This document shows positions 1-17,126 of a DNA stretch of 17,695 nt, in pieces. The position numbers and the translations under genes were made by a program. Positions within the stretch are counted from its first letter, which is position 1. Each line of letters starts with the position of its first letter. The notes under the pieces are model-generated. The model had not been told where the DNA came from, searched no databases, and saw nothing but the letters and a program-made list of their open reading frames with translations. Origin of the DNA: Thermoleophilia bacterium (GTDB taxonomy: Bacteria > Actinomycetota > Thermoleophilia > Gaiellales > Gaiellaceae); contig JADLFG010000046.1 in the NCBI GenBank assembly GCA_020845695.1, forward strand, positions 1 through 17,695, written 5' to 3'.

Positions 1-203
1 GCTAAAGGCGCGCAGCGTGCCCGGGTAATCACGGCCGGCAAGCGGGACATCCACGCCAACCAGGATCGCAGCCGGACAAGACGGAATCGGCACAAAGGGG
101 CGTCACGCGGATACCCCACTGCAGGCAAATTGGCGCGACCGAGGACGCCGCCTGGCGCCGCTTTGCAGCCGCCAGAGCTGTGCGGTATTCCCCGGACGGT
201 GCA
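1..203. other. Intergenic, no gene seen
   Basis: No convincing coding frame is visible. Composition is less GC-biased than the genes and stops occur in several frames. The only structure noticed is a weak inverted repeat, a 6-bp stem (152-157 with 170-175) around a 12-nt loop, just past the stop of the minus-strand permease. It could act as a weak terminator for that gene, but there is no U-tract, so this is a guess. Confidence 0.5.
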
Positions 204-1031
204 CTAGGTGCCGGCGGCGGCGATGCCGCTGACCGCGACGATCACGAGCCCGACGCCGAGTTGCTGGCGGCGCAGCAGCCGCTCCCCCGACAGCAGCCCG
301 AGCAGGACGGCGACGGTCGCGAACTGGGCGGCGAGCACGCCGGCGACGGCTACCGGCCCACGCTCGGCCGCGGCGAAGTAGAGGAGGTAGGCAGCCGAGT
401 CGCCGACGCCCCAGGCGGCGACGCGCCAGGGGTCGCGTGTCCACGAGCGCCAGGCCCCGGTCGCTGCGGCGAGCGGCAGCGTGAGGGCGACGCCGGCGGC
501 GCGGACGAGCAGGAAGCCCCAGTAGACGCCGAGGTCGTCGGCGACCGGCGCACTTAGAACGAGGATCGCGCCCCAGATCGCCGCCGCCGCCGCCGCGGGC
601 AGGACGGTCGCGCGGCCGCCGCCGCGCCCCATCGCGGCGAGCACGACCCCGGCGACCGCAACCGGGACGAACGCGCCGACGAGACCGCCGGGGCGCTCCC
701 CGGCGGCGATCGCGAGCAGGGCTGCGATCCCGCCCTCGCAGGCGATGATCGGGGCGACGATCGAGACTGCGCCGTCCCGGAAAGCCCGGAAGCCGAGGTA
801 GTAGGCGAGCGCGGAGCCGCCGCCGAGCAGCACTCCGAGCAGGAGCCCGCGCGAGGTCCACTCCGGCCCCCCGACGAAGAGAGCGGCCGGCGCCGTGAGC
901 ACGAGCCCGATCGCCATCGAGCCGAAGACGGTCGGCAGCGGCCCGGCACTTCGGGTCGCCTGGGCGAGCGACACGTCGGGGGCGCCCCAGCAGACCGCGC
1001 AGAGGACGCCGAGGAGGACGGTCAGCTCCAC
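204..1031 (-). CDS. EamA/DMT-family permease
   Basis: A 275-aa integral membrane protein of the drug/metabolite transporter superfamily. It is almost wholly hydrophobic, with about ten predicted membrane helices arranged as two EamA repeats (roughly residues 3-135 and 145-272). Each repeat ends in the short basic loop and hydrophobic hairpin usual for the family, such as the YLGFRAF segment near residue 78 and the LLSGERLLRR segment near the C-terminus. The substrate cannot be told from sequence; members export amino acids, metabolites or drugs. The start is GTG at 1031. There is no Shine-Dalgarno, but a TACTGT -10 box lies 8 nt upstream, so the transcript is probably leaderless. It is a separate unit from the upstream 77-aa gene, because a GC-rich hairpin lies between them. 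A second, divergent EamA protein is encoded at 1389-2258. Confidence 0.9.
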   Translation of the reverse strand: MELTVLLGVLCAVCWGAPDVSLAQATRSAGPLPTVFGSMAIGLVLTAPAALFVGGPEWTSRGLLLGVLLGGGSALAYYLGFRAFRDGAVSIVAPIIACEGGIAALLAIAAGERPGGLVGAFVPVAVAGVVLAAMGRGGGRATVLPAAAAAAIWGAILVLSAPVADDLGVYWGFLLVRAAGVALTLPLAAATGAWRSWTRDPWRVAAWGVGDSAAYLLYFAAAERGPVAVAGVLAAQFATVAVLLGLLSGERLLRRQQLGVGLVIVAVSGIAAAGT

Positions 1032-1039
1032 GCGAGCGG

Positions 1040-1045
1040 ACAGTA
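1040..1045 (-). promoter_or_regulatory. Leaderless -10 box for EamA permease
   Basis: The minus strand reads GCTACTGT, then 8 nt, then the GTG start at 1031. TACTGT fits the TAnnnT -10 consensus, and the spacing places the transcription start at or next to the GTG. The same GCTAnnnT arrangement precedes other genes in this window (9305-9310, 9294-9299 and 13968-13973), which strengthens the call. No -35 was identified. Confidence 0.45.
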
Positions 1046-1064
1046 GCGGCGCCCGGCCAGGTCT

Positions 1065-1094
1065 GCCCGGCCGGGGGGAGAGTCCCGGCCGGGC
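1065..1094 (-). terminator. GC-rich hairpin terminator
   Basis: A perfect 11-bp inverted repeat (1065-1075 with 1084-1094, arms GCCCGGCCGGG and CCCGGCCGGGC) encloses an 8-nt loop. It lies 15 nt beyond the stop of the minus-strand 77-aa gene and before the promoter of the EamA permease. It has no U-tract, as is common for actinobacterial hairpin terminators. It probably ends the transcript of the DUF2249 cluster. Being symmetric, it could also act on the other strand, but no plus-strand gene is present here. Confidence 0.55.
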
Positions 1095-1109
1095 TTCCCT
1101 CGCCGCCGC

Positions 1110-1343
1110 CTAGCCCTGGGGCCGTCCGCCGCGCAGCTCGGCGACGCGGATGATCTCGTCCCAGCGGCCCTTGCCGAAGCGACCGGCCCGCTCGCGACCC
1201 TGCTCGGCCAGATCGCGGATCTGCCGCTCCGCATCCGGGTCGTGCGTGCGGTAGGCCGCGTCGGTGAGGAGGCGGGCGGCCTCCTTGTCATGGCCGGCGG
1301 CGAGCTCACGGCGGGCCTCCGCGATGCTCTGGGCGACGTCCAT
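1110..1343 (-). CDS. Small helical protein, unknown function
   Basis: A 77-aa soluble, charged, probably all-helical protein of unknown function. Residues 1-55 resemble a single TPR-like helical pair (alanine- and leucine-spaced, AEARRELAAG then EAARLLTDAAYR), but one repeat is too little to assign a family. The C-terminal half contains a GRFGKGRWDEIIRVAEL segment. The start is ATG at 1343, because a near-perfect Shine-Dalgarno AAGGAGGTGA (1349-1358) sits 5 nt upstream. The in-frame GTG at 1352 lies inside that ribosome-binding site and is rejected. It lies 45 nt after the EamA permease with no terminator between them, so it may be the last gene of the DUF2249 cluster. A TAGAAT box (1379-1384) could also drive it alone. 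Confidence 0.75.
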   Translation of the reverse strand: MDVAQSIAEARRELAAGHDKEAARLLTDAAYRTHDPDAERQIRDLAEQGRERAGRFGKGRWDEIIRVAELRGGRPQG

Positions 1344-1378
1344 CGTCGTCACCTCCTTCGATCGTCGCCTCGTGCCGT

Positions 1379-1384
1379 ATTCTA
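1379..1384 (-). promoter_or_regulatory. Possible -10 box before 77-aa gene
   Basis: The minus strand reads TAGAAT in an AT-richer patch, about 20 nt before the Shine-Dalgarno of the 77-aa gene. It is a good match to a -10 hexamer. No -35 is recognisable, since the position where it would lie is inside the end of the preceding permease gene. Confidence 0.35.
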
Positions 1385-1388
1385 CAAT

Positions 1389-2258
1389 CTACGCCCCCGG
1401 GTCGCCACCCCCGGGCTCCCGCGCGAACACGACGACGGCGGCGACGATGAGCGCCCCTCCCATGAGCTGGATCACGGTGAGCGCCTCGCCGAGCACGGCC
1501 CAGCCCAGGACCACTGCCGTGAGCGGCTCGCCGTTGGCGAGGATCGCAGCCGAGCTGGCGCCGACGCGCCGCATGCCGCTGTAGAAGAGCATCACCGCGA
1601 GGGAGGCGCTGATGACGGCCGCCGCGACCGCCCACCCCCAGGCGGCCGCCGCCGGGGGCGCCTCCGGGGGGACGACGGCGACCGCGCCGGCGAGTGCCAG
1701 CGCCGGCCCCGTGAAGGTGAGAGCACTCAGCCATAGAGGCGCGAGCCCGTGCCCGACCATGAGCTGGCGGCTCGCCAGGACCACCACCGCGACCGACACG
1801 CCGCCGACGAGGCCGAGCACCACGCCGGTCAAGGACACGTCCTGAGGCAGGCCCACGATCAGGGCGATCCCGCCCAGGCCGGCCCCGACGGCCACCGCCC
1901 GGACCCGCCCGAGAGCCTCGCCGAAGAGAAGCGCCGCGGCGACCGTCACGAGCAGCGGGTAGACGTAGAACGCCAGCGTCACAAGGCCGATCGGCGCGCG
2001 GGCGAAGCCCTCGAAGAGCGCGACCCCGGCGCCGAGCTGGAAGGCGCCGACGGCGAGCGCGGCGAGCGCGAGCCGCCGGCCCGGCCGCCGTGCCCGCACG
2101 ACCAGAGCGACCGCGCAGAGTAGCGGCCCGGCGATGCAGAAGCGCAGCACGAGCAGCGTGTACGGGTCGCCGCCCTCTTCGTAGAAGAACCTGGAGAACA
2201 GGCCAAGCGTGCCGAAGCACGCCGCGGCCGCGAGGACGGTCAGATGCCCGCGACTCAG
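1389..2258 (-). CDS. EamA/DMT-family permease, probable CTG start
   Basis: An integral membrane permease with ten predicted helices in two EamA repeats, 289 aa if read from CTG at 2258. The second repeat ends with the family-typical EPLTAVVLGWAVLGEAL stretch. Substrate unknown. The first ordinary start in frame is GTG at 2150, but that would delete helix 1. The 36 codons upstream encode a textbook EamA N-terminus (HLTVLAAAACFGTLGLFSRF). No ATG, GTG or TTG occurs in frame in that stretch, whereas CTG at 2258 has GAGGA (2268-2272) 9 nt upstream. CTG initiation is therefore inferred; a sequencing error hiding a normal start is the alternative. The gene follows the cupin stop by 31 nt on the same strand and is probably co-transcribed with it, so it may export a product of this cluster. 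Confidence 0.85.
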   Translation of the reverse strand: MSRGHLTVLAAAACFGTLGLFSRFFYEEGGDPYTLLVLRFCIAGPLLCAVALVVRARRPGRRLALAALAVGAFQLGAGVALFEGFARAPIGLVTLAFYVYPLLVTVAAALLFGEALGRVRAVAVGAGLGGIALIVGLPQDVSLTGVVLGLVGGVSVAVVVLASRQLMVGHGLAPLWLSALTFTGPALALAGAVAVVPPEAPPAAAAWGWAVAAAVISASLAVMLFYSGMRRVGASSAAILANGEPLTAVVLGWAVLGEALTVIQLMGGALIVAAVVVFAREPGGGDPGA

Positions 2259-2289
2259 CGGCGGAGATCCTCGAGGCGGAGGCGCCCTC

Positions 2290-2667
2290 TCAAGCCCGGG
2301 CGGGCGTGCTCGGAAGCGCGATCGTGAGCAGGAACGCGGCGCCGTCGGTTGAGGCGACCGAGTGCCTGACTCCGGCCCCGAGCGTGAGCAGCTCGTCCGG
2401 GCCGAGCTCGTGCTCTCGACCGACCGCCGCGACCCGGATCCGGCCGTCGAGTGGCTGGAGCGTGGCCGGGCCGTCCGCGCCGTGCTCGGCGATGGAGCCG
2501 CCGGGACCGACGACGACCAGCGTCACCCGCAGCGGCCCGTCCTTGAGCAGGGTACGCGCGTTGCGCCCACCTTCTCCGACCAGCGCGGGATCGTCCGTTC
2601 GCTCCCGCTCCGCCCGCAGGTCGAATACGCGCGCTGCGGGGGCGAGCTCGCGGTCGACCGGGCTCAC
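2290..2667 (-). CDS. Cupin-domain protein
   Basis: A 125-aa protein with a single small beta-barrel cupin domain at about residues 40-120. Visible cupin features are the first-motif region GPGGSIAEHG (His62), the DGRIRVAAVG turn and the second-motif region LGAGVRHSV (His102). The usual second motif-1 histidine and glutamate are not obvious, so metal binding is likely weak or altered. Cupins of this size act as sensors, dioxygenase-like enzymes or binding proteins, and the role here is unknown. The GTG start at 2667 overlaps the TGA of the upstream DUF2249 gene as GTGA, which implies translational coupling. A longer open frame upstream is only the shadow of that gene. Its place in the cluster suggests a function in the same stress or metabolite response. 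Confidence 0.85.
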   Translation of the reverse strand: MSPVDRELAPAARVFDLRAERERTDDPALVGEGGRNARTLLKDGPLRVTLVVVGPGGSIAEHGADGPATLQPLDGRIRVAAVGREHELGPDELLTLGAGVRHSVASTDGAAFLLTIALPSTPARA

Positions 2668-2918
2668 GGCGCCGCCCCCGCCGCCGCGCGCTTCTTCACC
2701 TGCACGCGCCAGGTGACTGGGCCGGCCTCGAGGTAGTCGAACGTGAAGGCGGCATCGCCGCGGGTCGCCTTGAGCGTGTAGTACATGCAACGCGGGTCGT
2801 GGTCGACCGTGAGCTCGAGCGTCTCGCCCGCGGCGAGGCTCTCGTAGGCGCCCATGATCCGCTCGAAGCGGTCCTTCGGCTCCACCGGCCGGATGTCGAG
2901 CTCGATCGTCTGACTCAC
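2664..2918 (-). CDS. Small DUF2249 protein (copy 2)
   Basis: An 84-aa protein consisting of one DUF2249 domain. It contains LDIRP at residues 7-11, a DHDP motif at 39-42 and the EAGPVTWRVQV strand near the end, all typical of the family. DUF2249 is a small alpha/beta fold of unknown biochemical role, often found near hemerythrin-like, nitric-oxide and Fe-S genes. The GTG start at 2918 overlaps the preceding stop as GTGA and has a good Shine-Dalgarno, GGGAGG, 6 nt upstream inside the end of the TIM-barrel gene. It shares the DHDP position with the 77-aa DUF2249 protein at 3619-3852 but lacks the KPLRYQ that follows it there (it has RCMYYT), so the two are divergent paralogues and not a recent duplication. 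Confidence 0.93.
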   Translation of the reverse strand: MSQTIELDIRPVEPKDRFERIMGAYESLAAGETLELTVDHDPRCMYYTLKATRGDAAFTFDYLEAGPVTWRVQVKKRAAAGAAP

Positions 2919-3619
2919 GTGTCACCTCCCGGTGTGACCGTCAGAAGGGGCAATGAGGTCGCCTTGCTGCCGCAGCCCCAGCCGCCGCCACGCCGAAGCC
3001 ACGTCTGCCAGGCGACACGGTAGCGGCTCGAGGTGGGCGTGAGCACGACCGCGCCCCCGTACCCGGCGAGCGCGAGCTGCCCCATCAGCTCGCCGATCCC
3101 CTGCCCGGCCTGTCCGAGCGCCTCCGGGCCGCCGCCGGCGAGCCGGACGATGGCGAGGCGCGGGCGGAGGCGACCGAGCAGGGCCGCCGCCCGCTCGCCC
3201 AGGCCGCCGGCCGCCGGGTCGGCGTCCCAGGCCGCCTCGACGCCATCGGGGAGCTCCTGGCCCTCACCGCCGGCCGGATCGCCGAGGACGACGGCGGCGC
3301 GGGCGCCCAGCCCGGCGATCCGGGCTGCGCGGGCGGCAGCGGCGGGGCCAGCGAGGAGGACGGGCGCACCGAGGCTGCGAGACAGCGCGGCCAGCTCGGC
3401 GTCGCCGGCGGCCCCGTCGGTTCGGTAGCCGGCGATCCCGACTCCCGCCGCGACTGCACGCTCCGACGCTGCCCGCAGGAGCGCGACGTCGCCCGGGACG
3501 ACCCCGTGCGCGTCGCCCTCTCGCAGCTCGAGCGCGGCGAGGCCGCGCCGCCGGCAGGCGTCGAGCAGCTCCTCGAGCGAAGCGTCCGGGGCCGCGGCGG
3601 AGCTGAGCCCGAGCCGCAT
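2915..3619 (-). CDS. Xylose-isomerase-like TIM-barrel protein
   Basis: A 234-aa protein resembling the sugar phosphate isomerase/epimerase (AP_endonuc_2) TIM-barrel superfamily. It starts MRLGLSSAA (strand 1), followed by SLEELLDACRRRGLAALELREG, the usual first helix and second strand. Alternating Ala/Leu-rich helices and short strands run through residues 45-200. The protein is shorter than most enzymes of the family (about 260-290 aa) and has essentially one histidine, so the usual metal ligands are not apparent. The C-terminus carries an unusual RGGGWGCGSKA stretch. Catalytic activity is therefore doubtful, and it could be a binding or scaffold protein. The ATG at 3619 overlaps the preceding stop as TGATG. 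The last codons run over the ribosome-binding site of the following DUF2249 gene, which ties their translation together. Confidence 0.82.
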   Translation of the reverse strand: MRLGLSSAAAPDASLEELLDACRRRGLAALELREGDAHGVVPGDVALLRAASERAVAAGVGIAGYRTDGAAGDAELAALSRSLGAPVLLAGPAAAARAARIAGLGARAAVVLGDPAGGEGQELPDGVEAAWDADPAAGGLGERAAALLGRLRPRLAIVRLAGGGPEALGQAGQGIGELMGQLALAGYGGAVVLTPTSSRYRVAWQTWLRRGGGWGCGSKATSLPLLTVTPGGDT

Positions 3620-3852
3620 CAGCGCGTCTTCGAGATCTGGACGCGCCAGACCTCGGGGCCCTGCTCGAGGTACTCCCAGCCGAACTCGCCCTCGTGCTCG
3701 AACTCGAACTGGTAGCGAAGCGGCTTGGGATCGTGGTCGTTGACGAGCACGAACGCCTCGCCGGGCGCGAGCGCCGCGAAGGTCTGGAAGATGGTGGGGT
3801 GCTTCTCGGGGGGCGGGATCACCCGCACGTCGAGGGTGCGCTCTGCGCTCAT
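3619..3852 (-). CDS. Small DUF2249 protein (copy 1)
   Basis: A 77-aa single-domain DUF2249 protein and the most canonical copy in the window. It has LDVRVIPPPEKHP at residues 7-19, NDHDPKPLRYQ at 38-48 and a closing WEYLEQGPEVWRVQI. The conserved DHDP-KPLRYQ block suggests a ligand- or metal-binding loop, although no function has been proven for the family. The start is ATG at 3852, overlapping the upstream stop as ATGA. A strong GAGGAGAGGA ribosome-binding site lies 8 nt before it inside the preceding gene. Genes on both sides on this strand belong to the same cluster. Related small DUF2249 proteins are known beside hemerythrin-like and nitrogen-oxide genes, which supports a redox or nitrosative-stress role by association only. 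Confidence 0.95.
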   Translation of the reverse strand: MSAERTLDVRVIPPPEKHPTIFQTFAALAPGEAFVLVNDHDPKPLRYQFEFEHEGEFGWEYLEQGPEVWRVQISKTR

Positions 3853-4691
3853 CGGTCGGTCCTCTCCTCTCGGTCGGTTGCGTTGTCGCCGGCTGCGCGG
3901 CGGATGACCGCGCGCACGAGCCCGGGCTCCTGCTCGCGGATCTGGTAGACGAAGCCCCGCTCGTCGAGCAGGGGCAGCAGGAACTCGGGCACGCGCACGT
4001 TGATCTGGACGAGCGTGCCGCCCTCGGGCAGCTCCTCGAGCGCGGCCAGTGTCCGCAGCATCGGCTCGGGCGGCTCGAGGCCGCGCACGTCGAGGACGGT
4101 CGCGCCGTCCTCCTGCTCGATGCTGACCGGAGCAGGGGCGGCCTGCGGCGCGGGGGTGCGGCCGGGCGCGGCGAAGAACCAGACCCGCCAGTCGTCGTCG
4201 GCCAGCCGCTCGGTGTGATGGTCGAGACCCTGGGCGCCGAGGACGTCGGAGAGCGGGACGGGCTCGAAGATCGCCAGGACGACGAGCGCGCCGCCCTCGG
4301 GGACGTCGCGGCGGCTCGCCATGATCCGGCTGAACGGCTCGCGGCCGGCGCGCAGGTCCTCGCGCACGTCGACCTCGACGATCTTCTCCGCCGGGAGCTC
4401 GCGCAGGGCGGCGGGTAGCTCGGCCGCTGGCGGCGCGGCCGGCCGTGACCGGGCGAGCGGCTCCGCGGCTGCGTCGGCGCCCGCGCCGGCGTTCAGCCGC
4501 CGGACGAGCTCGTCCGGGTCGACACCGGCGATCCGCGCGGCCTGCTCGACCGTGACGAGCCGCGACATCACTTTGCGCAGGCGCGGGTTGCGCAGCTTCT
4601 CGAACGCGGGCGAGACGCTCGTGAACACGTCGATCAGCGCCTCGTCGTGACGCAGCACCGCGGACACCCGATCGTCCTTTCGGATCACCAT
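3849..4691 (-). CDS. DUF1858-DUF2249-DUF2249 protein
   Basis: A 280-aa soluble three-domain protein. Residues 9-67 match DUF1858 (related to the N-terminal ScdA/Ric-type domain), with [20 protein letters not shown] and a [12 protein letters not shown] helix. An Ala/Pro-rich linker follows (about 68-100). A first DUF2249 domain (about 105-176) has [11 protein letters not shown] in place of the DHDP motif, and a second DUF2249 (about 197-267) opens [12 protein letters not shown]. Domain order and size fit DUF1858/DUF2249 proteins found near Fe-S repair genes. ATG at 4691 and GTG at 4688 are in frame as ATGGTGA; the GTG would give the 4-nt overlap seen elsewhere in the cluster. A GAGGAGGGG ribosome-binding site precedes both. 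The frame stays open about 1.2 kb further upstream, but that part is antisense-like shadow of the membrane-protein gene. Confidence 0.92.
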
Positions 4692-4990
4692 GCCCCCTCC
4701 TCGATCATGCTCGGGTTCCAGGCCGGCTCCCAGACGAGGTCGGGCTCCACGGAGGTGACGCCGGGGAGCGGCTCGACCGCCCGGACGATCGCGTCCGTGA
4801 TCAGGCCCTCGAGCGGGCAGCCGGGAGTGGTGAGGCTGTAGGTGACCCTGACCGCGCCCCCGTCGAGCTCGACCGCGTAGACGAGTCCGAGCGTGACGAT
4901 GTCGAGCCCGATCTCGGGATCGATCACCGTCCGCAGAGCCTCGCGGACGAGCGCGTCGAGCGCGGCGTCGTCGAGCGGCTCGTCGTTCAC
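4685..4990 (-). CDS. MIP18/SufT-like DUF59 protein
   Basis: A 101-aa protein of the MIP18 (DUF59, PaaD/SufT-like) family, which acts in Fe-S cluster assembly or delivery in the cytoplasm. Visible hallmarks are [15 protein letters not shown] (residues 24-38), the reactive-cysteine loop TTPGCPLEG with Cys58, and the [11 protein letters not shown] block near residues 86-95. Length is normal for a single-domain member. The GTG start at 4990 overlaps the TGA of the membrane-protein gene as GTGA, and AAGGAGG lies about 5 nt upstream. Finding it directly after the membrane protein and before the DUF1858/DUF2249 protein suggests it matures an Fe-S or related metal centre for this cluster or its regulator. 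Whether it is a true SufT cannot be decided here, and no other suf gene is in the window. Confidence 0.93.
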
Positions 4991-6282
4991 GGCTTCCTCC
5001 TTGCCAGTTGCAGCATTTGCGTCCCCTGGATCGCGACGCCCGCGGCGAAAAGCGCCGCCGCGCCCCGGGCCGCGTCACCCTGCCCGGCCGCAACGGTAGC
5101 GACCAGAGCGACGGCCCCGCCCGCGAGCAGCGCCGCCGCCGCCCAGGCGGCCCGGGTCGAGTAGAGCTCGACGACGCGCGGCACGGGCCGGCGCCCGGCC
5201 AGGCGGCCGAAGCGGTGGTACCAGACGAGGAACGGGACGATCTTGTAGGCGTGGGCCGCCACGAACAGGGAGAGACCGAGCAGGAGCGCGGCGACGTAGC
5301 TCGTGTAGCCGCGGGGCGTGGCCCAGGTCGAGAGGGCGACGAGGCCGAGCACGAGCCCGGCGGCGAGCAGGGCGAGCGCGACGGCGGCGAGGCGCAGGCC
5401 CGGGTCGAGCGCGGGCCGGTGGCGGTGGCGGTAGAACTGCCGCGCCTGCGCGAGGAAGCTGGCGAGCCCCGCTGCGAGCAGCGCGACCGGGAGCCAGCGC
5501 GCCGTGGCGGCCGGGCCGCCCCCGTGGGAGGCGAGCAGCACCACCGACCCGGCGGTGAGCAGCGCGACCGCGGCTTTCGCGAAGCGGCTGCCGGCACCGT
5601 GGCTGAGCAGGAACATCGGCAGGAGACGGTGGGCGACGCCGACGACGACGAGCAGCACCCAGCCGGCGAGGGCGACGTGGAGGTGGGTCCCGAGCGCGTC
5701 GAGGCGGCCGCCGGCAAGGTAGCCGGCGTCGAGGTTGCCGGCGAGCAGGATTCCGAGCGCGAGCGTGGCGAGGAGGAAGCAGTCGGCGCCCGCGAGCGCC
5801 CACCAGGTGAGGTCGCGCCGCGCGGAGCGCCGCAGGGTGAGGGCGAGGTTGCCGGCGAAGGCGAGGATCCCGGCACCGAACGTGGCGGCTCCGGCAAGCA
5901 TTACCCCGGAGGCGTCGAAGACGAGGCCGCAGACGAAGAGCGCAAGCCCGGGCACGTGGAGCGCGAAGGCGACGTGACCGAGGCGCACGGAGCGGATCGG
6001 CTCACCGAGCGCGACGGGCACGAACTGGTAGAGAGCGCCCATGATCGTCGTCGTGATCCAGCCGAGGCCGAACAGGTGCGCGACCGCGACCACCCGGGGG
6101 AGCGGGTACCCGCCGAGGGCCAGGTCGGGGGCAACGGCCACGGCGCCCGCCGCGGCGGCCGCGAGGAAGACGAAGGCGGCGGCGAAGTGCTCGCCGGGCA
6201 GGCGAAACGGGGGCGACTTCGCGCTCGCGAGCCCGCTCGCTCCCGGTCTCGGCGGCGCGGGTGCCTGCGCGGCGGCGGTCAC
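4987..6282 (-). CDS. Heme-copper oxidase-like/NnrS-like membrane protein
   Basis: A 431-aa polytopic membrane protein with about twelve predicted helices. The segment [23 protein letters not shown] (His69, TM2) resembles the heme-ligating region of cytochrome oxidase subunit I and of NnrS. Further histidines lie at helix ends: His200/His202 in [11 protein letters not shown], His218/His228 around [10 protein letters not shown], and His344/His356 in [14 protein letters not shown]. The adjacent His-His pair of a true CuB site is not seen, so this is probably not a respiratory oxidase. A heme- and/or copper-binding membrane protein dealing with nitric oxide or a metal is more likely (inference). 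The GTG at 6282 overlaps the regulator stop as GTGA. An N-terminal Pro/Ala-rich tail of about 30 residues precedes the first helix. The identity could equally be an uncharacterised membrane family. Confidence 0.88.
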
Positions 6283-6923
6283 GCCGCCGCCCCGCTGTAG
6301 GAGCAGGACGGATCGCCCGCGGGGATGTGGCTGACGCGCACGAGGCGGTCGCCGAGCAGCTCCGAGACGAAGCCGATCTCGACTTTGCAGGGGATCGCCG
6401 TCTCGTCGACGAGCTCGCGTAGCGGGCAGTGGCAGAGGCGCAGCCGCGGCTCGTCCGGGGGGCCCTCGAGCTCGGCCATGAAGCCGAGCTCGGTCAGGAT
6501 CCGGGCGGCCTCCTCGAGTCGTTCCCGCCCCTCGAGCCGCGTGACCCGGGCCAGCGCCCCCTCCCGGCGCGCGGCGATGACGCGCTCGAAGAACCGCTCG
6601 AGCAGCCGCTCGTTGCCGGTCTCGCGCAGGTAGGCGGCGAGCTGGCGCAGCACCTCCCCCTCCCGCTGCGGGAAGAACGCCTCCGCCGCGGGCGCGAGCG
6701 CGTGCACGAGCTCCGGCCGCCCCCGCCCGCCGCGGACGGCGCCCGCGCGCCGGACGAGACCGTGCGCCGCGAGCGCGCGCAGGTGGTCACGGACGGTCTC
6801 GACGTTCAGCCCGAGCTCCGCCGCCAGCCCCGCCGTCGTCAGCTCCCCGCGCCGCTTGAGCGCGGCGAGGATCGCAGCCTGGCTCTCCCCCAGCCCGGGC
6901 GCATTTTTCAAGCTTATCGCCAT
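6279..6923 (-). CDS. SufR-like winged-helix Fe-S regulator
   Basis: A 214-aa transcription regulator. Residues 13-75 form a winged helix of ArsR/MarR type (LTTAGLAAELGLNVETVRDHLRAL, wing GGRGRPELVHAL). Residues 80-160 are helical, and the C-terminal part carries Cys164, Cys166 (CHCPLREL), Cys179 and Cys207. This is the layout of SufR-type repressors, whose cysteines hold an Fe-S cluster that tunes DNA binding. Cluster ligation here is inference. The start is placed at ATG 6923: a TAGTAT -10 box lies 10 nt upstream and there is no ribosome-binding site, so the transcript is probably leaderless. An in-frame GTG at 6968 would put the promoter inside the gene. It is the first gene of the DUF2249 cluster, and a palindrome on its promoter suggests autoregulation. 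Confidence 0.9.
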   Translation of the reverse strand: MAISLKNAPGLGESQAAILAALKRRGELTTAGLAAELGLNVETVRDHLRALAAHGLVRRAGAVRGGRGRPELVHALAPAAEAFFPQREGEVLRQLAAYLRETGNERLLERFFERVIAARREGALARVTRLEGRERLEEAARILTELGFMAELEGPPDEPRLRLCHCPLRELVDETAIPCKVEIGFVSELLGDRLVRVSHIPAGDPSCSYSGAAA

Positions 6924-6939
6924 GACTATCCGGATACTA
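6924..6939 (-). promoter_or_regulatory. Regulator promoter with palindromic operator
   Basis: The minus strand reads TAGTAT (6934-6939) followed 10 nt later by the ATG of the SufR-like regulator. A perfect 10-bp palindrome, TATCCGGATA (6927-6936), overlaps the end of the -10 box and the expected transcription start. A protein bound there would block initiation, so it is a good candidate operator for autorepression of the whole cluster. No second copy of the palindrome was noticed elsewhere in the window. Confidence 0.45.
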
Positions 6940-7013
6940 CCGGGCAGCCGGCACGGGCGCGTCGCCACCCGGAGGCGAGCGCGGGGTGCGCTGCTTCCGG
7001 GCGATCCGCTCAG

Positions 7014-7087
7014 AGCGGGCGACGGGACTCGAACCCGCGACCCTCAGCTTGGAAGGCTGACGCTCTAGCCAACTGAGCTACGCCCGC
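7014..7087 (-). tRNA. tRNA-Gly (anticodon TCC)
   Basis: The minus strand folds as a complete 74-nt cloverleaf: acceptor GCGGGCG with CGCCCGC, D-arm GCTC/GAGC, anticodon stem TCAGC/GCTGA with loop CTTCCAA, variable GGGTC, and T-arm GCGGG-TTCGAGT-CCCGT. The loop gives anticodon TCC, so it reads glycine GGA/GGG codons. The discriminator is T and the CCA end is not encoded. No duplicated 3' end suggesting an integration site was noticed nearby. Confidence 0.97.
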
Positions 7088-7105
7088 GTGCCGACTCAGC
7101 CTAGC

Positions 7106-7306
7106 TCACGCGGAGGCGGCGGGACGAACGTGCGTGGCGCCGCGGCCGGGAGAGCGGCCGAGGGCGCCGACGAGGAGGCTGACCCGCTCGGCGCCGAGTT
7201 GCGCTTCGAGGCGAGCGCGGGCGCTGCCGCCGTCCCGGGAGGTGAGGCGCCCCAGGGCGGCGAGGTCTCGCAGCAGCCTCGCATCGCCTCGTTCGCCCCC
7301 CGCCAT
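7106..7306 (-). CDS. Possible small leaderless gene
   Basis: A 66-aa open frame beginning MAGGERGDARLLRDLAALG. It has a helical, Leu/Arg-rich N-terminal half, an LEAQLGAERVSLLVGALG helix in the middle and a basic Ala/Pro tail. No family is recognised. Support comes from codon third positions as GC-rich as in the neighbours, a sensible amphipathic composition, and a TAGCCT -10 box 11 nt upstream of the ATG, matching other leaderless genes in the window. It ends 18 nt before the tRNA-Gly on the same strand and could be co-transcribed with it. It may be a chance frame in GC-rich DNA, and only comparison with relatives would settle it. Confidence 0.42.
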   Translation of the reverse strand: MAGGERGDARLLRDLAALGRLTSRDGGSARARLEAQLGAERVSLLVGALGRSPGRGATHVRPAASA

Positions 7307-7317
7307 CTTGCCGTGTC

Positions 7318-7350
7318 AGGCTACAGCCGCGACCGGACGGCGGCTACCCC
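7318..7350. promoter_or_regulatory. Divergent -10 boxes between small gene and ligD-like gene
   Basis: On the minus strand TAGCCT (7318-7323) sits 11 nt before the ATG of the 66-aa frame. On the plus strand GGCTACCCC puts a TACCCC box at 7345-7350, about 35 nt before the GTG of the polymerase gene. This would give a short leader carrying that gene's GGAGGGG ribosome-binding site (7374-7380). The rest of 7088-7385 shows no other structured element. Confidence 0.35.
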
Positions 7351-7385
7351 TCCGGATGGTGATCTGCAACCCTGGAGGGGTGCTT

Positions 7386-8279
7386 GTGTCCGGGCGGGAC
7401 GTCGCGCTGACGAACCTCGACAAGGTCTTCTTCCCCCGGCTCGGCCTGACGAAGGGCGAGCTCGTGCGCTACTACGTCGACCTCGCTCCCCACGTGCTCG
7501 GGCACGTCGCCGGCCGGCCGATGCTGCTCAAGCGCTTCCCGGACGGCGTCGAGGGCGCGTGCTTCTACCAGAAGCGGGCGCCGCGCCAGCGCCCGGAATG
7601 GCTGCGCACCGTCCACGTCGAGTTCCCGAGCGGGCGCAGCGCCGACTTCCCCGTCGTCGACGACGCGGCCGGGCTCGCGTGGGTCGCGAACCTCGGCTGC
7701 ATCGACCTCAACACCTGGCCCTCCCGGGTCGAGCACGTCGAGCGGCCCGACTACCTCCTGATCGACCTCGACCCGCGCGAGGTCGACCCCTGGGAAGCGG
7801 TGCGCGAGATCGCGCTCGCCGCCCGGGAAGTGCTCGACGGGCTCGACCTCGCCAGCTACCCGAAGACCTCCGGCGCCACCGGCCTCCACATCCTCTGCCC
7901 GATCCTGCCCGAGCTCGAGTTCCCCGAGGTGCGCCGCGCCGCCAAAGCGATCTCGCGGCGGATCGCGGCGCTCGTCCCCGACCTGGCGACGACGACCTGG
8001 AAGGTCGCTGACCGCCCGGGCGTCTTCGTCGACTACGGCCAGAACGCCCGCGACCGCACCATCGCCGCCGCCTACTCGATCCGGCCCACGCCGGACGCGC
8101 GGGCCTCCGCCCCGCTCGCCTGGGACGAGGTGGCGACGGTCGACCCGGGCGCGTTCACGCTTGCGACGATGCGCGATCGGGTCGCCGACGCCGGCGATCT
8201 CACCGCCGGGATGCACGAGCGCGCGGTCAGCCTCCTGCCGCTCCTCGACCGGCTCGGACTCAGGCCACCCCGCCAGTAG
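7386..8279 (+). CDS. LigD-type polymerase/primase domain protein
   Basis: A 297-aa stand-alone polymerase domain of the LigD/archaeo-eukaryotic primase family, which fills or extends DNA ends with nucleotides during non-homologous end joining or related repair. Seen motifs: TNLDKVFFP near the start, catalytic motif I LIDLDP (Asp127, Asp129), motif II SGATGLHI (Ser162 to His168) and motif III VFVDYGQN (Asp216). Length matches the polymerase domain alone; the ligase and phosphoesterase parts of full LigD are absent. The GTG at 7386 is chosen because GGAGGGG lies 5 nt upstream and the protein then begins VSGRDVALTNLDKVF as in relatives. An in-frame ATG at 7356 would add ten residues. The 3' end overlaps the convergent ligase gene by 20 bp. 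No Ku gene is in the window. Confidence 0.94.
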   Translation: MSGRDVALTNLDKVFFPRLGLTKGELVRYYVDLAPHVLGHVAGRPMLLKRFPDGVEGACFYQKRAPRQRPEWLRTVHVEFPSGRSADFPVVDDAAGLAWVANLGCIDLNTWPSRVEHVERPDYLLIDLDPREVDPWEAVREIALAAREVLDGLDLASYPKTSGATGLHILCPILPELEFPEVRRAAKAISRRIAALVPDLATTTWKVADRPGVFVDYGQNARDRTIAAAYSIRPTPDARASAPLAWDEVATVDPGAFTLATMRDRVADAGDLTAGMHERAVSLLPLLDRLGLRPPRQ

Positions 8280-9285
8280 GCCCGCCGAGCAGCGAGGCGA
8301 CGGTCGGGTCGCCGGGCCGCGGCAGCGGGCGCACCCGCTCGATCGTGCACGCCCGGGAATCGGTGTCCGGGCGGAAGCGCAGCAGCCGCGTGCCGTGGCG
8401 GAAGCGGCCCCCCTGCCACTTGTCGTAGCGAACCTCGACGACCAGCTCCGGGCGGGCTCGTACCTCCGCGAGGCCGCTCGACCCCCAGCGACTCGGCTCC
8501 GACACCCGCCCGGGCCCGCCGTCCAGTAGCGGCCCGACGAGCGCCACGACCTCGTCGTGGCGGCGCGCCCCGACCGCCGCGGAGCCGACGTAGCGCAGCC
8601 CGCCCCGCTCGTCGAAGAGACCGAGCAGCAGGGTCGCGATCCGACCGCTCGCCCCGTCGAAGCGCGCGCCGGCGACAACGCAGTCGGCGGTCAGGTGCCG
8701 CTTCACCTTGACGACCGCGTCGCGGGCGCCCGGGCGGTACGGTCGGTCAAGCCGCTTCGCGACGACCCCGTCGAGACCGGCGACCTCGAGCCGCTCGAGC
8801 CAGCCCGCCGCGACCTCCCGCTCGAGCGTCGCGGGCGAGAGCGCCAGCGGCACGCCCAGGGCCTCGAGCCGGGCCCGCCGCTCGGCGAGCGGCAGCCGCC
8901 AGACCTCGTCTCCGGCCCAGAGCAGGACGTCGAAGCAGACGAGCCGCGCGGGCGTCTGGGCGGCCAGCTGGCGCACCCTGCTCTCGGCCGGGTGCAGGCG
9001 CTGCTGGAGCGCGTCGAAGTCGAGCACGCCGCCGCGGTCGATCACGATCTCCCCGTCGAGTGCCGAGCCGGCCGGCAGCGCATCACCCGCGGGCGCGAGC
9101 TCCGGGAAGTAGCGCAGGAGCGGCCGCCCGTTGCGGCTCCAGAGACGCAGCTCGCCCTCGACGGTCTCGAGCACGCCTCGGAAGCCGTCCCACTTCGGCT
9201 CGTACTGCCAGCCCGGGCCGTCCGGGAGCTCCCGGACGAGCTCCGCCTCCATCGGCGGGAACGGCAGCCCGGCTGGCGGCGGCAC
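8260..9285 (-). CDS. ATP-dependent DNA ligase (LigC/LigD type)
   Basis: A 341-aa ATP-dependent DNA ligase of the small LigC/LigD-ligase class, sealing nicks or joined ends by lysine adenylation. Motif I is EPKWDGFR with catalytic Lys31. Motif III is FDVLL (118-122), motif IV DGVVAK (172-177) and motif V VVKVKR (191-196). An OB-fold domain follows from about residue 205 (LLLGLFDERGGLRYVG). Length is usual for the class. The GTG at 9285 is preferred, giving the Pro-rich lead-in PPPAGLPFPPM seen in relatives. ATG at 9252 is possible. No Shine-Dalgarno is present, but a TACCCT -10 box lies 8 nt upstream, so the message is probably leaderless. Its partner polymerase is convergent on the opposite strand, so the two are not one operon. 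Full-length LigD is ruled out by the lack of other domains. Confidence 0.95.
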   Translation of the reverse strand: MPPPAGLPFPPMEAELVRELPDGPGWQYEPKWDGFRGVLETVEGELRLWSRNGRPLLRYFPELAPAGDALPAGSALDGEIVIDRGGVLDFDALQQRLHPAESRVRQLAAQTPARLVCFDVLLWAGDEVWRLPLAERRARLEALGVPLALSPATLEREVAAGWLERLEVAGLDGVVAKRLDRPYRPGARDAVVKVKRHLTADCVVAGARFDGASGRIATLLLGLFDERGGLRYVGSAAVGARRHDEVVALVGPLLDGGPGRVSEPSRWGSSGLAEVRARPELVVEVRYDKWQGGRFRHGTRLLRFRPDTDSRACTIERVRPLPRPGDPTVASLLGGPTGGVA

Positions 9286-9293
9286 TCGTGCCC

Positions 9294-9310
9294 AGGGTAG
9301 CGGCTACCCT
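9294..9310. promoter_or_regulatory. 17-bp palindromic divergent promoter
   Basis: AGGGTAGC-G-GCTACCCT is a perfect inverted repeat with one central base. Each arm contains TACCCT, a TAnnnT -10 box. On the plus strand it lies 6 nt before the ctaG-like GTG at 9317, on the minus strand 8 nt before the ligase GTG at 9285. One symmetric element thus appears to fire two leaderless transcripts in opposite directions. It could also be a regulator-binding site. Confidence 0.5.
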
Positions 9311-9316
9311 CCGCGC

Positions 9317-10081
9317 GTGGAGCCCTCGCCGTGGGCCTGGGAGCCTGCCTGGGTCGAGGCGGGCGTCGTCGCCGCGCTCGGCGCCGGCGCGCTGGTCGCT
9401 CAGCACCGGGGCCGCGCGCCCGCACGCAGGCGCCTCGCCGCCGGAGGCGCGACGCTGCTCGCGCTCGCGACCGTCACCACCCCGCTCGAGACGCTCGCAA
9501 CCACGTACCTGCTCTCCGCCCACGTGCTCCAGAACGCGGTGCTCTCCGAGTGGGCGCCGGCGCTCGCGGTCGCCGCGATCGGGCCGGCGGTCGCGGCGCG
9601 GCTCGCCCGCCGCGGGCCCCTGCGCACGCTCGTTCATCCGCTCGTCGCGCTGCCCGTGTGGCTCGCGACGCTCGGCGTCTGGCACGTGCCCGCGCTCTAC
9701 GAGGCGGCGCTCGCACGGCCGGGCTCCCTGCTCATGCTCGAGCACGCGAGCTACGCGGCCGCCGGCACGCTGCTCTTCTGGCCCGCCTTCCAGCGGGAGC
9801 CGCGGGCGCTCTCGCCGGGCGCGAAGGCCGGCTATCTCACGGCTGCGTTCCTGCTCGCGAGCCCGCTCGGACTCCTCCTGACGTTCCTGCCCAGCCCGCT
9901 CTACCGGTTCTACGAGGAAGCGCCCCGCGCCTTCGAGCTCTCCCCGCTCGGCGACCAGCAGCTCGCCGGCGTCGTGATGGCCGCCTCCGAGGCGGTGCTC
10001 TTCTTCGGTCTCTTCGCCCTCTTCTTCCTGCGCTTCCTGGCCGAGGAGGACCGGGTGCGGGCCCAGGATCCTACGCGATGA
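9317..10081 (+). CDS. CtaG-like (caa3-type) cytochrome oxidase assembly protein
   Basis: A 254-aa integral membrane protein of the caa3_CtaG family, needed for assembly of the copper-containing cytochrome c oxidase in Bacillus and common in Actinomycetota. About seven membrane helices are predicted. The family's histidine-bearing helix blocks are visible: LLSAHVLQNAVLSEWAP (His69), GVWHVPALYEAAL (His123) and LEHASYAAAGTLLFWP (His143), which are candidate copper ligands. The GTG at 9317 is chosen because a TACCCT -10 box lies 6 nt upstream (leaderless) and the protein then begins just before helix 1. The open frame extends further upstream only as shadow of the ligase gene. No oxidase subunit genes lie nearby. 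The 3' end overlaps the convergent DUF1501 gene by 11 bp. Confidence 0.92.
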   Translation: MEPSPWAWEPAWVEAGVVAALGAGALVAQHRGRAPARRRLAAGGATLLALATVTTPLETLATTYLLSAHVLQNAVLSEWAPALAVAAIGPAVAARLARRGPLRTLVHPLVALPVWLATLGVWHVPALYEAALARPGSLLMLEHASYAAAGTLLFWPAFQREPRALSPGAKAGYLTAAFLLASPLGLLLTFLPSPLYRFYEEAPRAFELSPLGDQQLAGVVMAASEAVLFFGLFALFFLRFLAEEDRVRAQDPTR

Positions 10082-11489
10082 CCGGCAGCGGCTCGCCCGC
10101 GTAGCCCGGCAGGATGCGGGCCGCCTCGATCCCGAGGTGCTGCTCGAGCACGCCAGCGTAGACGTCGCGGAAGTCGATCGCGACCGGGACGTTGCCGTCC
10201 GTCGCGCCGAGGTGCCCGAGTTCCCAGGCGGGGACGGCCAGGCCGCCGGCCACGCGCGGGCCGACGGCGAGCAGGAGGCCGCCGGCGCCGTGATCGGTCC
10301 CGAACGAGTCGTTGTCCTCGACCCGCCGCCCGAACTCGGACCAGACGAGCGTCACCACCCGCTGGGCGAGTCCGCGCCGCTCGAGGTCGGCCTGGAAGGC
10401 AACCAGCGCCGCGCCGAGGTCGGTGAGGTTCCAGCGCAGCTGCTCGGGCTGCCCCTCGTGCGTGTCGAACATGCCCGCGCTCTGGACGGTCGCGACGCGT
10501 ACGCCGAGCCCGGCCCCGAGCAGGCGGGCGAGGTTGCGCAGCGCCGCGCCCGTGTCCGAGTCCGGGTAGGGCCGCGGAGGCGCCGGTGCCCCGCCGGCCT
10601 CGTCCTCGGCCCGGAGCGGGCCGAGCGCGTCGCGCACCTGCACGGACTGGCGCGCGATCTCGACGGCTCGCCGGCGCGCGGACACCGACGGGTCGCCGCC
10701 GAGCTCGCGCAGCGCCTCCAGCATCCGGCTCGAGTCCCAGACGCCCGGCGACCAGAAGTCGAAGTCGCCAGGCGAGAAGAGCGCGCAGGTCGGCGCGCGG
10801 CGGCTCGCGAGCACGTCATCGGTCGACCACTCGACGGCGACGCCCTGGAGCGGGTTGTCGAGCGAGCCCGCCTCGTCGAGGTAGCGTCCGAGCCAGCCGG
10901 TGTCGGCGGCCATGTCGAGCGTGCCGCTGCGCCAGTACTTCGTCGAGTGGAAGTGCGAGAAGTCCGGGTTCGGGTAGTCGGCCGCCAGGTAGACGCCGAG
11001 CAGGCCCGCGTCGTAGAGGTCGCGCAGGCCCGGGGCGGCCGGGTGCCAGCCGAGGTCGGGATGACCGGGGATCGGCAGCGCCGCCTCCGCGGCCACCGCG
11101 ATCCGCGGGCGCCCGCGCTCGTAGGCCTCCCGGTCGGGACCCGCGAGAGGCACGACCGTGCCGAGCCCGTCGTTGCCGCCCGGGAGAAAAAGCGTCACGA
11201 GGATCGGCTCGCCGGTCTCGGCCGCGCGCGCGCGCTCCACGAGCTCCCACGGGGTCAGCCGGCTCGCCGCCGCCAGAGCGACGAACGCGCCGACACCGCC
11301 GGCGAGCAGCTCGCGCCGCGTGCGCCTCTCCGCCGCGAAACCGGCCGACCCCGCTTCGAGCAGCGCCTCGGGGAGCGGCAGCACGCGCGCCGCGCCCCGG
11401 CTGAGCAGCGCTCGTCTCGACGTGCGCCGGAAGTCCGAGCAGGCGCGATGGAGCTCGGCCGGGGCAAGCGGAGGGCGGCGGCCGGCCAC
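10071..11489 (-). CDS. DUF1501 family protein, probable Tat substrate
   Basis: A 472-aa DUF1501 protein, a sulfatase/alkaline-phosphatase-like fold whose members are often exported by the Tat system. Core features are TLFLPGGNDGLGTVVPL (about 99-115), the SHFHSTKYWRSG block, MFDTHEGQ, VTLVWSEFGRRVEDN and TDHGAGGLLLAVG. The Asp, His and Ser residues in these blocks are the likely metal or active-site positions, unproven for the family. A twin-arginine TRRELL (57-62) precedes a hydrophobic Ala-rich stretch, an unusually long 56 residues from the chosen start. The GTG at 11489 begins one base after the DUF1800 stop and has AGGTG 7 nt upstream; a later start nearer the Tat motif is possible. The upstream continuation of the frame is shadow. 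It forms an operon with the DUF1800 gene. Confidence 0.92.
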   Translation of the reverse strand: MAGRRPPLAPAELHRACSDFRRTSRRALLSRGAARVLPLPEALLEAGSAGFAAERRTRRELLAGGVGAFVALAAASRLTPWELVERARAAETGEPILVTLFLPGGNDGLGTVVPLAGPDREAYERGRPRIAVAAEAALPIPGHPDLGWHPAAPGLRDLYDAGLLGVYLAADYPNPDFSHFHSTKYWRSGTLDMAADTGWLGRYLDEAGSLDNPLQGVAVEWSTDDVLASRRAPTCALFSPGDFDFWSPGVWDSSRMLEALRELGGDPSVSARRRAVEIARQSVQVRDALGPLRAEDEAGGAPAPPRPYPDSDTGAALRNLARLLGAGLGVRVATVQSAGMFDTHEGQPEQLRWNLTDLGAALVAFQADLERRGLAQRVVTLVWSEFGRRVEDNDSFGTDHGAGGLLLAVGPRVAGGLAVPAWELGHLGATDGNVPVAIDFRDVYAGVLEQHLGIEAARILPGYAGEPLPVIA

Positions 11490-11490
11490 G

Positions 11491-12852: not shown

Positions 12853-12880
12853 GCTGCGCGGTGCCTCGACCCCTACCGGC

Positions 12881-12886
12881 ACATTA
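12881..12886 (-). promoter_or_regulatory. Possible -10 box for DUF1800-DUF1501
   Basis: The minus strand reads TAATGT in a locally AT-richer stretch just after the hairpin at 12892-12926. It would place transcription start near 12874, giving a leader of about 20 nt with the GAGG site before ATG 12852. No -35 is recognised. Confidence 0.33.
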
Positions 12887-12891
12887 CGTAG

Positions 12892-12926
12892 GCCCCGACG
12901 GGGGATCCGGCATCCCCCGTCGGGGC
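12892..12926 (-). terminator. Perfect 15-bp hairpin after ROK kinase
   Basis: The arms GCCCCGACGGGGGAT (12892-12906) and ATCCCCCGTCGGGGC (12912-12926) pair perfectly around a 5-nt loop. The hairpin lies 35 nt past the ROK kinase stop and 40 nt before the DUF1800 start, all on the minus strand. There is no U-tract, so it is either an actinobacterial-style terminator or an RNA-processing or attenuation structure. Termination of the ROK transcript is the simplest reading. Confidence 0.65.
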
Positions 12927-12960
12927 ACTCCGCTGGGAGGGGGAGAGTACGCTCATCCTG

Positions 12961-13944: not shown

Positions 13945-13967
13945 CGCGCCTCCCCTGGGTCGGGCGC

Positions 13968-13973
13968 ACGATA
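13968..13973 (-). promoter_or_regulatory. Possible -10 box for ROK kinase
   Basis: The minus strand reads GCTATCGT, whose TATCGT fits TAnnnT. Transcription would begin near 13961, giving a short leader that carries GGGGAGG before ATG 13944. It resembles the GCTAnnnT boxes before other genes in the window. Confidence 0.35.
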
Positions 13974-13999
13974 GCGAGCGCGGCGGGCGACCTCGCGGG

Positions 14000-16198: not shown

Positions 16199-16220
16199 TC
16201 TCGACTCCTTCCCGGCGTGC

Positions 16221-16340
16221 TCAGACCACGGCCGCGAGCAGGACCGCGACGGTGGCGATGGAGAGCGTCAGGAGCGCCGAGCCGGCGGCGATCAGCGTCG
16301 CGACCCTCCTGCGCTCCATGGACTGCGCTGCCTGCGTCAT
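16221..16340 (-). CDS. 39-aa single-TM peptide upstream of MMPL
   Basis: A tiny membrane peptide of 39 aa. It has a short polar N-terminus with three arginines (MTQAAQSMERRR), then one hydrophobic helix of about 26 residues (VATLIAAGSALLTLSIATV onward) that ends at the stop. By the positive-inside rule the N-terminus faces the cytoplasm. The start is ATG at 16340, with GGGGAGGG (16347-16354) 6 nt upstream. An in-frame ATG at 16346 abuts that site and is less likely. The gene ends 22 nt before the MMPL exporter, which has its own good ribosome-binding site, so they are very probably one transcript. Small helices of this type can be subunits or modulators of RND pumps (as AcrZ is for AcrB), but that role is inference. 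No family is recognised. Confidence 0.72.
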   Translation of the reverse strand: MTQAAQSMERRRVATLIAAGSALLTLSIATVAVLLAAVV

Positions 16341-17117: not shown

Positions 17118-17126
17118 GGCCGCAGC

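Follow-up and report, generated by a model that had tools for sequence, protein, structure and literature searches.

A SufR-like regulator heads a conserved operon of oxidase-fold, MIP18 and DrpA/DrpB-type proteins, a candidate accessory module for nitrogen-oxide and low-oxygen respiration

The DNA analysed here (the window, 17,695 nt) comprises positions 1-17,695, forward strand, of contig JADLFG010000046.1 from the Thermoleophilia bacterium assembly GCA_020845695.1. Its open reading frame (ORF) listing contains ten minus-strand genes running from 6923 to 1110, in which a SufR-like regulator gene precedes genes for a membrane protein with 12 transmembrane helices (12-TM), an iron-sulfur (Fe-S) maturation-type protein and several DUF2249 proteins. 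With the starts chosen, neighbours among the eight genes from the regulator (6279-6923) to the cupin (2290-2667) overlap by 1-7 bases; the longest ORF-finder starts differ from those chosen for the regulator, the DUF1858 protein and the cupin. An EamA gene and then a 77-residue gene lie downstream of the cupin after gaps of about 30-45 bases, and a tRNA-Gly gene is found just upstream of the operon on the same strand. The features are as follows.

6279..6923, minus strand: SufR-like winged helix-turn-helix (HTH) regulator, 214 residues, C164-x-C166-x12-C179-x27-C207 (PF12840/PF01022 above cut-off)
6908..6925, no strand: weak candidate operator that spans the sufR start codon and differs from TCAAGG-N6-CCTTGA at two positions
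4987..6282, minus strand: 12-TM protein of heme-copper-oxidase fold, 431 residues, predicted single-heme (model fold; invariant H69 in TM2 and H200 in TM6)
4685..4990, minus strand: MIP18/DUF59 Fe-S maturation-type protein, 101 residues (PF01883)
3849..4691, minus strand: DrpB-type protein DUF1858-DUF2249-DUF2249, 280 residues, no cysteine (Pfam, Thermus identity)
3619..3852, minus strand: DrpA-type single DUF2249 protein, 77 residues (Thermus identity)
2915..3619, minus strand: xylose-isomerase-like TIM-barrel protein of a family without a name, invariant C216 in GCGS near the C-terminus (model, fold search)
2664..2918, minus strand: second DUF2249 protein, 84 residues, cysteine in DHDPxCMY (PF10006, 76.5 bits)
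2290..2667, minus strand: cupin, 125 residues, optional member (Cupin_2; same strand in 5/15 related loci)
1389..2258, minus strand: EamA exporter, start uncertain, a neighbour outside the module (Pfam EamA; elsewhere only in L001)
1110..1343, minus strand: 77-residue protein, a neighbour outside the module (no Pfam match; elsewhere only in L001)

The Pfam scan gave no match for the 12-TM protein, the TIM-barrel protein or the 77-residue protein at 1110-1343, and the cupin scored 23.5 bits on Cupin_2, just below the 27.2 cut-off. The first ATG, GTG or TTG of the EamA gene lies at 2150, with homology starting further upstream, hence the uncertain start. No sigma-70-type promoter was found in the operon region, which holds one weak terminator match. 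The original prediction for this locus, made from the bare sequence, had described ten same-strand genes with almost no spacing, headed by a cysteine-bearing SufR-like regulator and including a 12-TM membrane protein and a TIM barrel. The layout at 1110-6923 was found as described, the winged HTH and SufR-type cysteine spacing of the regulator agree with it, and structural models bear out the membrane protein and the TIM barrel (below).

That the operon goes beyond chance follows from the recurrence of its gene order in other genomes. A scan of genome contigs recovered nine loci (L numbers denote loci, G numbers genomes) with the 12-TM family, one in a Thermoleophilia metagenome-assembled genome (MAG; L001, 85% identity) and eight in Gemmatimonadota MAGs. 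Among 200 sampled Gemmatimonadota genomes 27 match the family, 22 at an expect value (E) below 1e-60 and 9 below 1e-140. The nine loci and six further top-tier genomes make up the 15 related genomes (14 Gemmatimonadota, one Thermoleophilia) counted here; they were selected by likeness to the 12-TM protein, and member genes were counted with a single tblastn threshold. The recurring order is 12-TM, MIP18, DUF1858-DUF2249x2, DUF2249, TIM barrel, DUF2249, its members being present in 13-15 of the 15. All 15 have the 12-TM, MIP18 and DrpB-type genes in that order, 14 have the DrpA-type gene, and the TIM barrel and the second DUF2249 gene are each found in 13; L005 shows only a 52-residue piece of the former and L004 has 21 residues of the latter at a contig edge. 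A same-strand SufR-like gene occurs in 9/15 (8 upstream, 1 downstream), an Mrp-type carrier is a neighbour in 9/15 and a same-strand cupin is present in 5/15. The exporter and the small gene after it recur at one of the 15 loci, the closest (L001); the short contigs of L004, L005 and L063 could not reveal them. The 12-TM gene of one MAG is split across two frames (L009:5641-6883), through sequencing error or decay.

The original prediction treated all ten genes as one system and proposed checking whether regulator, membrane protein, MIP18 and DUF2249 genes co-occur. The core is conserved and far from limited to one strain, the last three being present in every related genome and the regulator in nine; the exporter and the last small gene are better left out. 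A lower tier of 13 genomes (E 1e-60 to 1e-140), ten of which were read, has a core of Mrp (6/10), 12-TM (10/10), DrpB (9/10) and DrpA (7/10), with MIP18 near it in 4/10, two of these on the opposite strand; neither the TIM barrel nor the second DUF2249 gene was found in these ten. Within Thermoleophilia, the 12-TM family has one strong and two weak matches among 199 genomes of the class. The window protein, that of L001 and four further proteins form a fully supported clade. Since the place of this clade among Gemmatimonadota is unsettled, horizontal transfer of the operon into Thermoleophilia is only suggested.

Two of the DUF2249 proteins have counterparts in Thermus. The 77-residue protein at 3619-3852 is 70% identical over 69 residues to the Thermus thermophilus plasmid protein in the DrpA position, and the 280-residue protein is 40% identical over 273 positions to that in the DrpB position. 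Their domains agree with this assignment (DUF1858 and two DUF2249 in the DrpB-type, a single DUF2249 in the DrpA-type), and the two plasmid proteins, which are encoded behind nar genes, fit DrpA and DrpB of Chahlafi et al. (PMC6282519; this and the other papers are cited here from excerpts). The two window proteins would thus correspond to a known pair, which the original prediction had missed. Thermus drp mutants mis-express nitrate reductase, the enzyme they make in air being inactive, and loss of both DrpA and DrpB renders nar expression independent of nitrate (PMC6282519). Haloferax DUF2249 genes are induced in denitrification (PMC11218638). The likeness to Thermus includes the domain architectures and the presence of a 12-TM homologue and MIP18 as the third and fourth genes after DrpB in the plasmid. 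Unlike Thermus, where DnrT drives drp, the window operon is headed by a SufR-like gene, and it adds a TIM barrel, a second DUF2249 protein and a cupin. As the scanned window ORFs include no nar gene, we use the label 'DrpA/DrpB-type' and do not speak of a nar-linked drp operon. The DHDPxCMY motif of the second DUF2249 protein is present in 12/12 relatives whose motif was read, and DrpA-type copies have a proline in place of its cysteine.

The AlphaFold model of the 431-residue membrane protein has 12 long helices, and fold comparison assigns this predicted structure the heme-copper-oxidase fold. Catalytic subunits of heme-copper oxidases and nitric oxide (NO) reductases have six histidine ligands, among them a pair in TM7 and an HxH in TM10. 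Neither feature is present in the 12-TM protein (alignment of 35 sequences, helix numbers from the model), in which H69 (TM2) and H200 (TM6) are the only invariant histidines (35/35). The earlier description of the protein as histidine-rich is fair as to content (13/431 residues) but does not extend to conserved positions. Likewise, of the membrane heme/copper device then proposed, the oxidase fold stands and copper does not: a single heme is likely, and a copper centre is not supported. The histidine count led us to reject a catalytic oxidase or NO reductase. A PDB sequence search with the alignment profile gave no match, and a single-sequence search two hits at E 0.2. Profile alignment of the 12-TM protein to CcoN (a comparison resting on loci L064 and L066) and NorB was not convincing, so the placing of the histidines rests on model helices and not on residue alignment.

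HCOH proteins (homologues of heme-copper oxidases) have 12 TM helices and two conserved histidines. Model and alignment give the 12-TM protein both traits, and it shares with HCOH proteins the oxidase fold and the company of DUF2249 and denitrification genes; the DUF2249 link of HCOH proteins is given in PMC11218638, which credits Pei et al. 2014. The operon's subfamily differs from HCOH proteins in general by a fusion to MIP18 in one member (P0029) and by its SufR-type regulator.

The MIP18 protein scores 75.1 bits on PF01883, against a gathering score of 23.5 bits. It resembles SufT/MIP18 (DUF59) and Mrp/ApbC systems in this domain and in the Mrp-type neighbour of its relatives. Unlike SufT/MIP18, it is the operon's own copy and falls under the cut-offs of SUF_assoc (80.1 of 143.4 bits) and SufT (73.5 of 202.6 bits). 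The TIM-barrel model (predicted local distance difference test, pLDDT, 89) is xylose-isomerase-like, and the Foldseek matches listed are mostly xylose-isomerase-like and 3-epimerase chains. PF01261 gave no match in the window protein and at best 13.1 of 31.1 bits in ten homologues, none of which had a Pfam match above cut-off. C216 of the GCGS motif is invariant (29/29 rows), with E31 and H38 nearly so. In the 200 genomes 14 match this family at E <= 0.001, seven clearly (E < 1e-60) and seven weakly (21-26 bits), and all seven clear matches lie inside the operon. The family is an operon specialist.

A connection to nitrogen-oxide genes, also anticipated by the original prediction, is apparent in distant genomes and in co-occurrence. 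Five distant regions were chosen for diversity from 157 records and a further 9, and serve as illustrations, not counts. The 12-TM profile scores 87-124 bits on their homologues (Rhizobium, Thermus, Azospirillum, Mesorhizobium, Natronococcus) and less than 4 bits on NnrS and NorB. The order in Rhizobium is DUF2249, 12-TM homologue, DUF2249 protein, MIP18, NnrS (opposite strand) and nirK. The Azospirillum region has a gene annotated cbb3 that carries HxxxE, a motif as in NorB, and which we take to be NorB-type; a DUF2249 gene and the 12-TM homologue follow it at a short distance. Mesorhizobium has NnrS, 12-TM homologue, DUF2249 and DUF1858 genes upstream of nosR/nosZ, with three opposite-strand genes between. 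The Thermus thermophilus plasmid reads narGH-TorD-narI, DrpA, DrpB, two genes, 12-TM homologue, MIP18; the last two match the window proteins at 31% over 333 positions and 44% over 82, and the excerpted text of PMC6282519 contains no mention of them. The two genes after DrpB in this island (L077:12798-14074) are one for a 144-residue protein and one of protoglobin type.

NosZ is encoded in 76 of the 200 Gemmatimonadota genomes, and in 18/22 of those with the 12-TM family against 58/178 without it (Fisher p 1.2e-5). For the top nine genomes the proportions are 7/9 against 69/191 for NosZ (p 0.016) and 5/9 against 21/191 for NirK (p 0.002). Among the 15 cluster genomes NosZ is found in 11, NirK above cut-off in 6 and NarG above cut-off in one (G007), with strong NarG fragments in G001, so that 14/15 have NosZ or NirK above cut-off or NarG, the G001 fragments included. 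In G001, the closest genome, there are four such fragments (585-926 bits, one running off a contig end), on contigs other than that of the cluster. A gene for the iron-centre repair protein RIC (ScdA_N-hemerythrin) lies directly upstream of the cluster in G006 (L045:12583-13305), and another on the cluster contig of G007 some 16-19 kb off (L051:3125-3781). In G027, G076 and G186, weak matches to the 12-TM family (E 1e-21 to 1e-26) are found no more than about 2 kb from nosZ.

The regulator scores 50.9 bits on the SufR_cyano model, below its cut-off of 178.8. Its C-x12-C-x27-C spacing is kept in 9/10 aligned cluster copies (x28 in the tenth, L044) and equals that of C203, C216 and C244, the three cysteines needed in Rv1460 SufR (PMC6034842). 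The winged HTH is a further likeness to SufR. Unlike SufR, the repressor of suf operons (PMC6034842), the protein heads a different kind of operon, in which Pfam and curated models found no sufBCDSU-type gene. ArnR of Corynebacterium follows a related logic: it is a winged-HTH [4Fe-4S] protein with three conserved cysteines, responds to NO and regulates nitrate respiration. It differs in cysteine spacing (179, 193, 223) and in targets (PMC12343034). G006 has a second SufR-like gene about 18 kb from its cluster (L046:10246-10860), without the first of the four cysteines.

The candidate operator TCAAGG-N6-CCTTGA comes from three relatives, L008, L048 and (with one mismatch) L007, whose sufR promoters carry it. 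Scans covered the cluster loci and 15 genomes (57.4 Mb), with the G002 matches and part of those of G015 outside the listing. At least seven perfect sites were found, where base composition predicts 1.36 (p 0.0005 for seven). Two of the seven had served to define the motif; for the five that came later p is 0.013. Among the matches listed, three precede sufR or DUF488-sufR (G003, G008, G188) and three are found at a cbb3-like oxidase gene, either ahead of it or at its start (G048, G005, G098); the seventh is where a cupin ORF close to the G188 cluster starts. A reversed-pattern control gave at least as many hits as the real pattern in 14/15 genomes, with perfect and one-mismatch sites pooled and no separate control for perfect sites, and we regard one-mismatch hits as background. 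The window's own site is tentative, since chance alone should yield many two-mismatch hits (10.45 per 533 kb), the window has a second one at 4987, and the closest relative, L001, has no operator within two mismatches at its sufR start. An exact 10-base palindrome before the window sufR, absent from the nine other loci compared, was not used.

The divergent cbb3-like oxidase genes by perfect sites are at L047:4484-7056, L100:5207-6658 and L101:2449-3906; the first two score about 253 bits on ccoN (cut-off 583), and the third was scanned with Pfam. Regions divergent from sufR in L044:6205-9513 and L084:5735-9747 encode a COX1-like protein of 4-TM size, CtaA and CopD. Alongside these, L044 has a NirK-like multicopper protein that scores under the NirK cut-off, and L084 a cupin and a radical SAM protein of TIGR04053.

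Gene order, families, predicted fold, conserved residues and co-occurrence are observed. On this basis we favour, with a probability of roughly 0.55, the reading that the operon encodes a DrpAB/12-TM heme-protein module accessory to nitrogen-oxide and low-oxygen respiration and is controlled by a SufR-type Fe-S repressor. The best reading of its role is that an NO- or oxygen-responsive module would sense nitrogen oxides or protect the cofactors of such respiration. Several observations weigh against this. Six of the 15 loci lack a same-strand SufR-like gene, although two of these (L005, L063) end just upstream of the cluster, where a regulator would not be visible. No nar, nir, nor or nos gene was found among the main window ORFs scanned, which were not every ORF. 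The Natronococcus homologue sits amid three DUF2249 genes with no denitrification gene in the stretch shown, and G015 has no NosZ, NirK or NarG. In G001 neither NirK nor NosZ exceeds cut-off, the NarG fragments are the only nitrogen-oxide gene found, and the COX1-family matches are two strong oxidases and the 12-TM protein, with no NOR-like one; the nitrogen-oxide link of the window's own lineage would therefore rest on the NarG fragments of a relative. RIC is not clearly enriched (2/9 against 8/191, p 0.067; 2/22, p 0.30), and we do not regard it as a constant partner. Shared ancestry makes all the Fisher p-values too optimistic. Finally, a cbb3-like oxidase gene stands behind three of the seven perfect operator sites listed, a placement more in keeping with oxygen than with NO.

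This last point speaks for the main rival, in which the regulon serves the divergent cbb3-like oxygen reductase, the operon matures or protects that oxidase, and the nitrogen-oxide link reflects shared habitat only. In G048 a perfect site is at the 5' end of the gene for cbb3-like subunit I; in G005 and G098 the site precedes such a gene by 80-90 bases. The oxidase genes of G048 run on one strand into sufR, Mrp and the module with its 12-TM gene. The G048 oxidase retains the tyrosine and histidines of cbb3 oxidases and so looks like an oxygen reductase. CtaA and CopD genes stand beside two clusters, one of which also has UbiA-type and SCO1 genes. However, distant versions sit in nar, nirK and nos islands, and the closest genome has no match above the ccoN cut-off and no perfect operator site among the matches listed; we regard oxidase support as clearly less likely than the accessory module. 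A nitrate sensor as in Chahlafi et al., with DrpA detecting nitrate, DrpB signalling to transcription and the membrane protein as the cross-membrane link that their model lacks, is less probable again. The operon has the DrpA/DrpB homologues, nar expression escapes nitrate control once both Drp proteins are lost (PMC6282519) and NarG fragments occur in the closest relative, yet NarG exceeds cut-off in a single cluster genome with fragments in one more, the sensor role is itself its authors' proposal (PMC6282519), and MIP18 and Mrp would be more at home in cofactor work than in sensing. A general Fe-S or oxidative-stress operon with no nitrogen-oxide tie would account for the SufR-like regulator, MIP18 and Mrp, all three of them Fe-S proteins of a general kind. 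Such an operon is improbable: Pfam and curated models found no further Fe-S assembly or oxidative-stress gene in it, and nitrogen-oxide genes are enriched and adjacent. Catalysis by the 12-TM protein itself, as an NO reductase or an oxidase, is hardly credible, with two invariant histidines in 35 sequences and neither the TM7 pair nor the TM10 HxH.

We propose that the accessory module works in three steps. From its cysteine spacing, the regulator would bind an Fe-S cluster and repress the operon, repression ending once the cluster is destroyed by NO, oxygen or a lack of iron. The membrane protein, judged by its fold and two invariant histidines, would hold one heme between TM2 and TM6 and may act as a receptor, an electron relay or a heme-handling partner rather than as a catalytic oxidase or NO reductase. 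The domains suggest that MIP18 delivers or repairs Fe-S clusters, aided in many relatives by the Mrp/ApbC-type carrier, and that DrpA, DrpB and the second DUF2249 protein are soluble partners in this work. The net effect would be to control or maintain Fe-S and heme enzymes, nitrate reductase and a cbb3-like oxidase for example, under nitrogen-oxide respiration or low oxygen. A fuller version, which we offer as a speculation, is that a SufR-type repressor gone from the suf operon has become the dedicated switch of an NO/oxygen-responsive regulon with the operator TCAAGG-N6-CCTTGA. Its operon would build a membrane complex of a single-heme oxidase relative, an Fe-S delivery protein and DrpA/DrpB that senses nitrogen oxides and repairs respiratory metalloenzymes, with the TIM barrel and the cysteine-bearing second DUF2249 protein as a new cofactor- or sulfur-handling pair.

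Elsewhere in the window, a LigD-type primase-polymerase gene (plus strand) lies beside an ATP-dependent DNA ligase gene (minus strand) at 7344-9285, as in bacterial end joining. Adjacent DUF1501 and DUF1800 genes, then ROK, MMPL and LuxR-type response regulator genes, all on the minus strand, occupy 10071-17117.

DrpA/DrpB, the oxidase relatives and their denitrification company are already known. The open-access literature matches listed contain no description of the operon as a unit, of the regulator with its operator or of the TIM-barrel family, in agreement with the original prediction, which did not recognise the complete set, TIM barrel and cupin included, as a described system. Its stress-system reading was partly right; the biology appears more specific, copper is unsupported and the exporter is a neighbour. 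We read the locus as this module joined by a new TIM-barrel/DUF2249 pair and moved under a SufR-type switch. DUF2249, DUF1858 and non-catalytic heme-copper oxidase relatives accompany denitrification genes in several lineages; the operon unites them with MIP18 and an Fe-S-type switch, which makes a vague association directly testable. Gemmatimonadota, the commonest carrier phylum, are rich in nitrous oxide (N2O) reducers, and the module could therefore bear on the upkeep of their respiratory enzymes.

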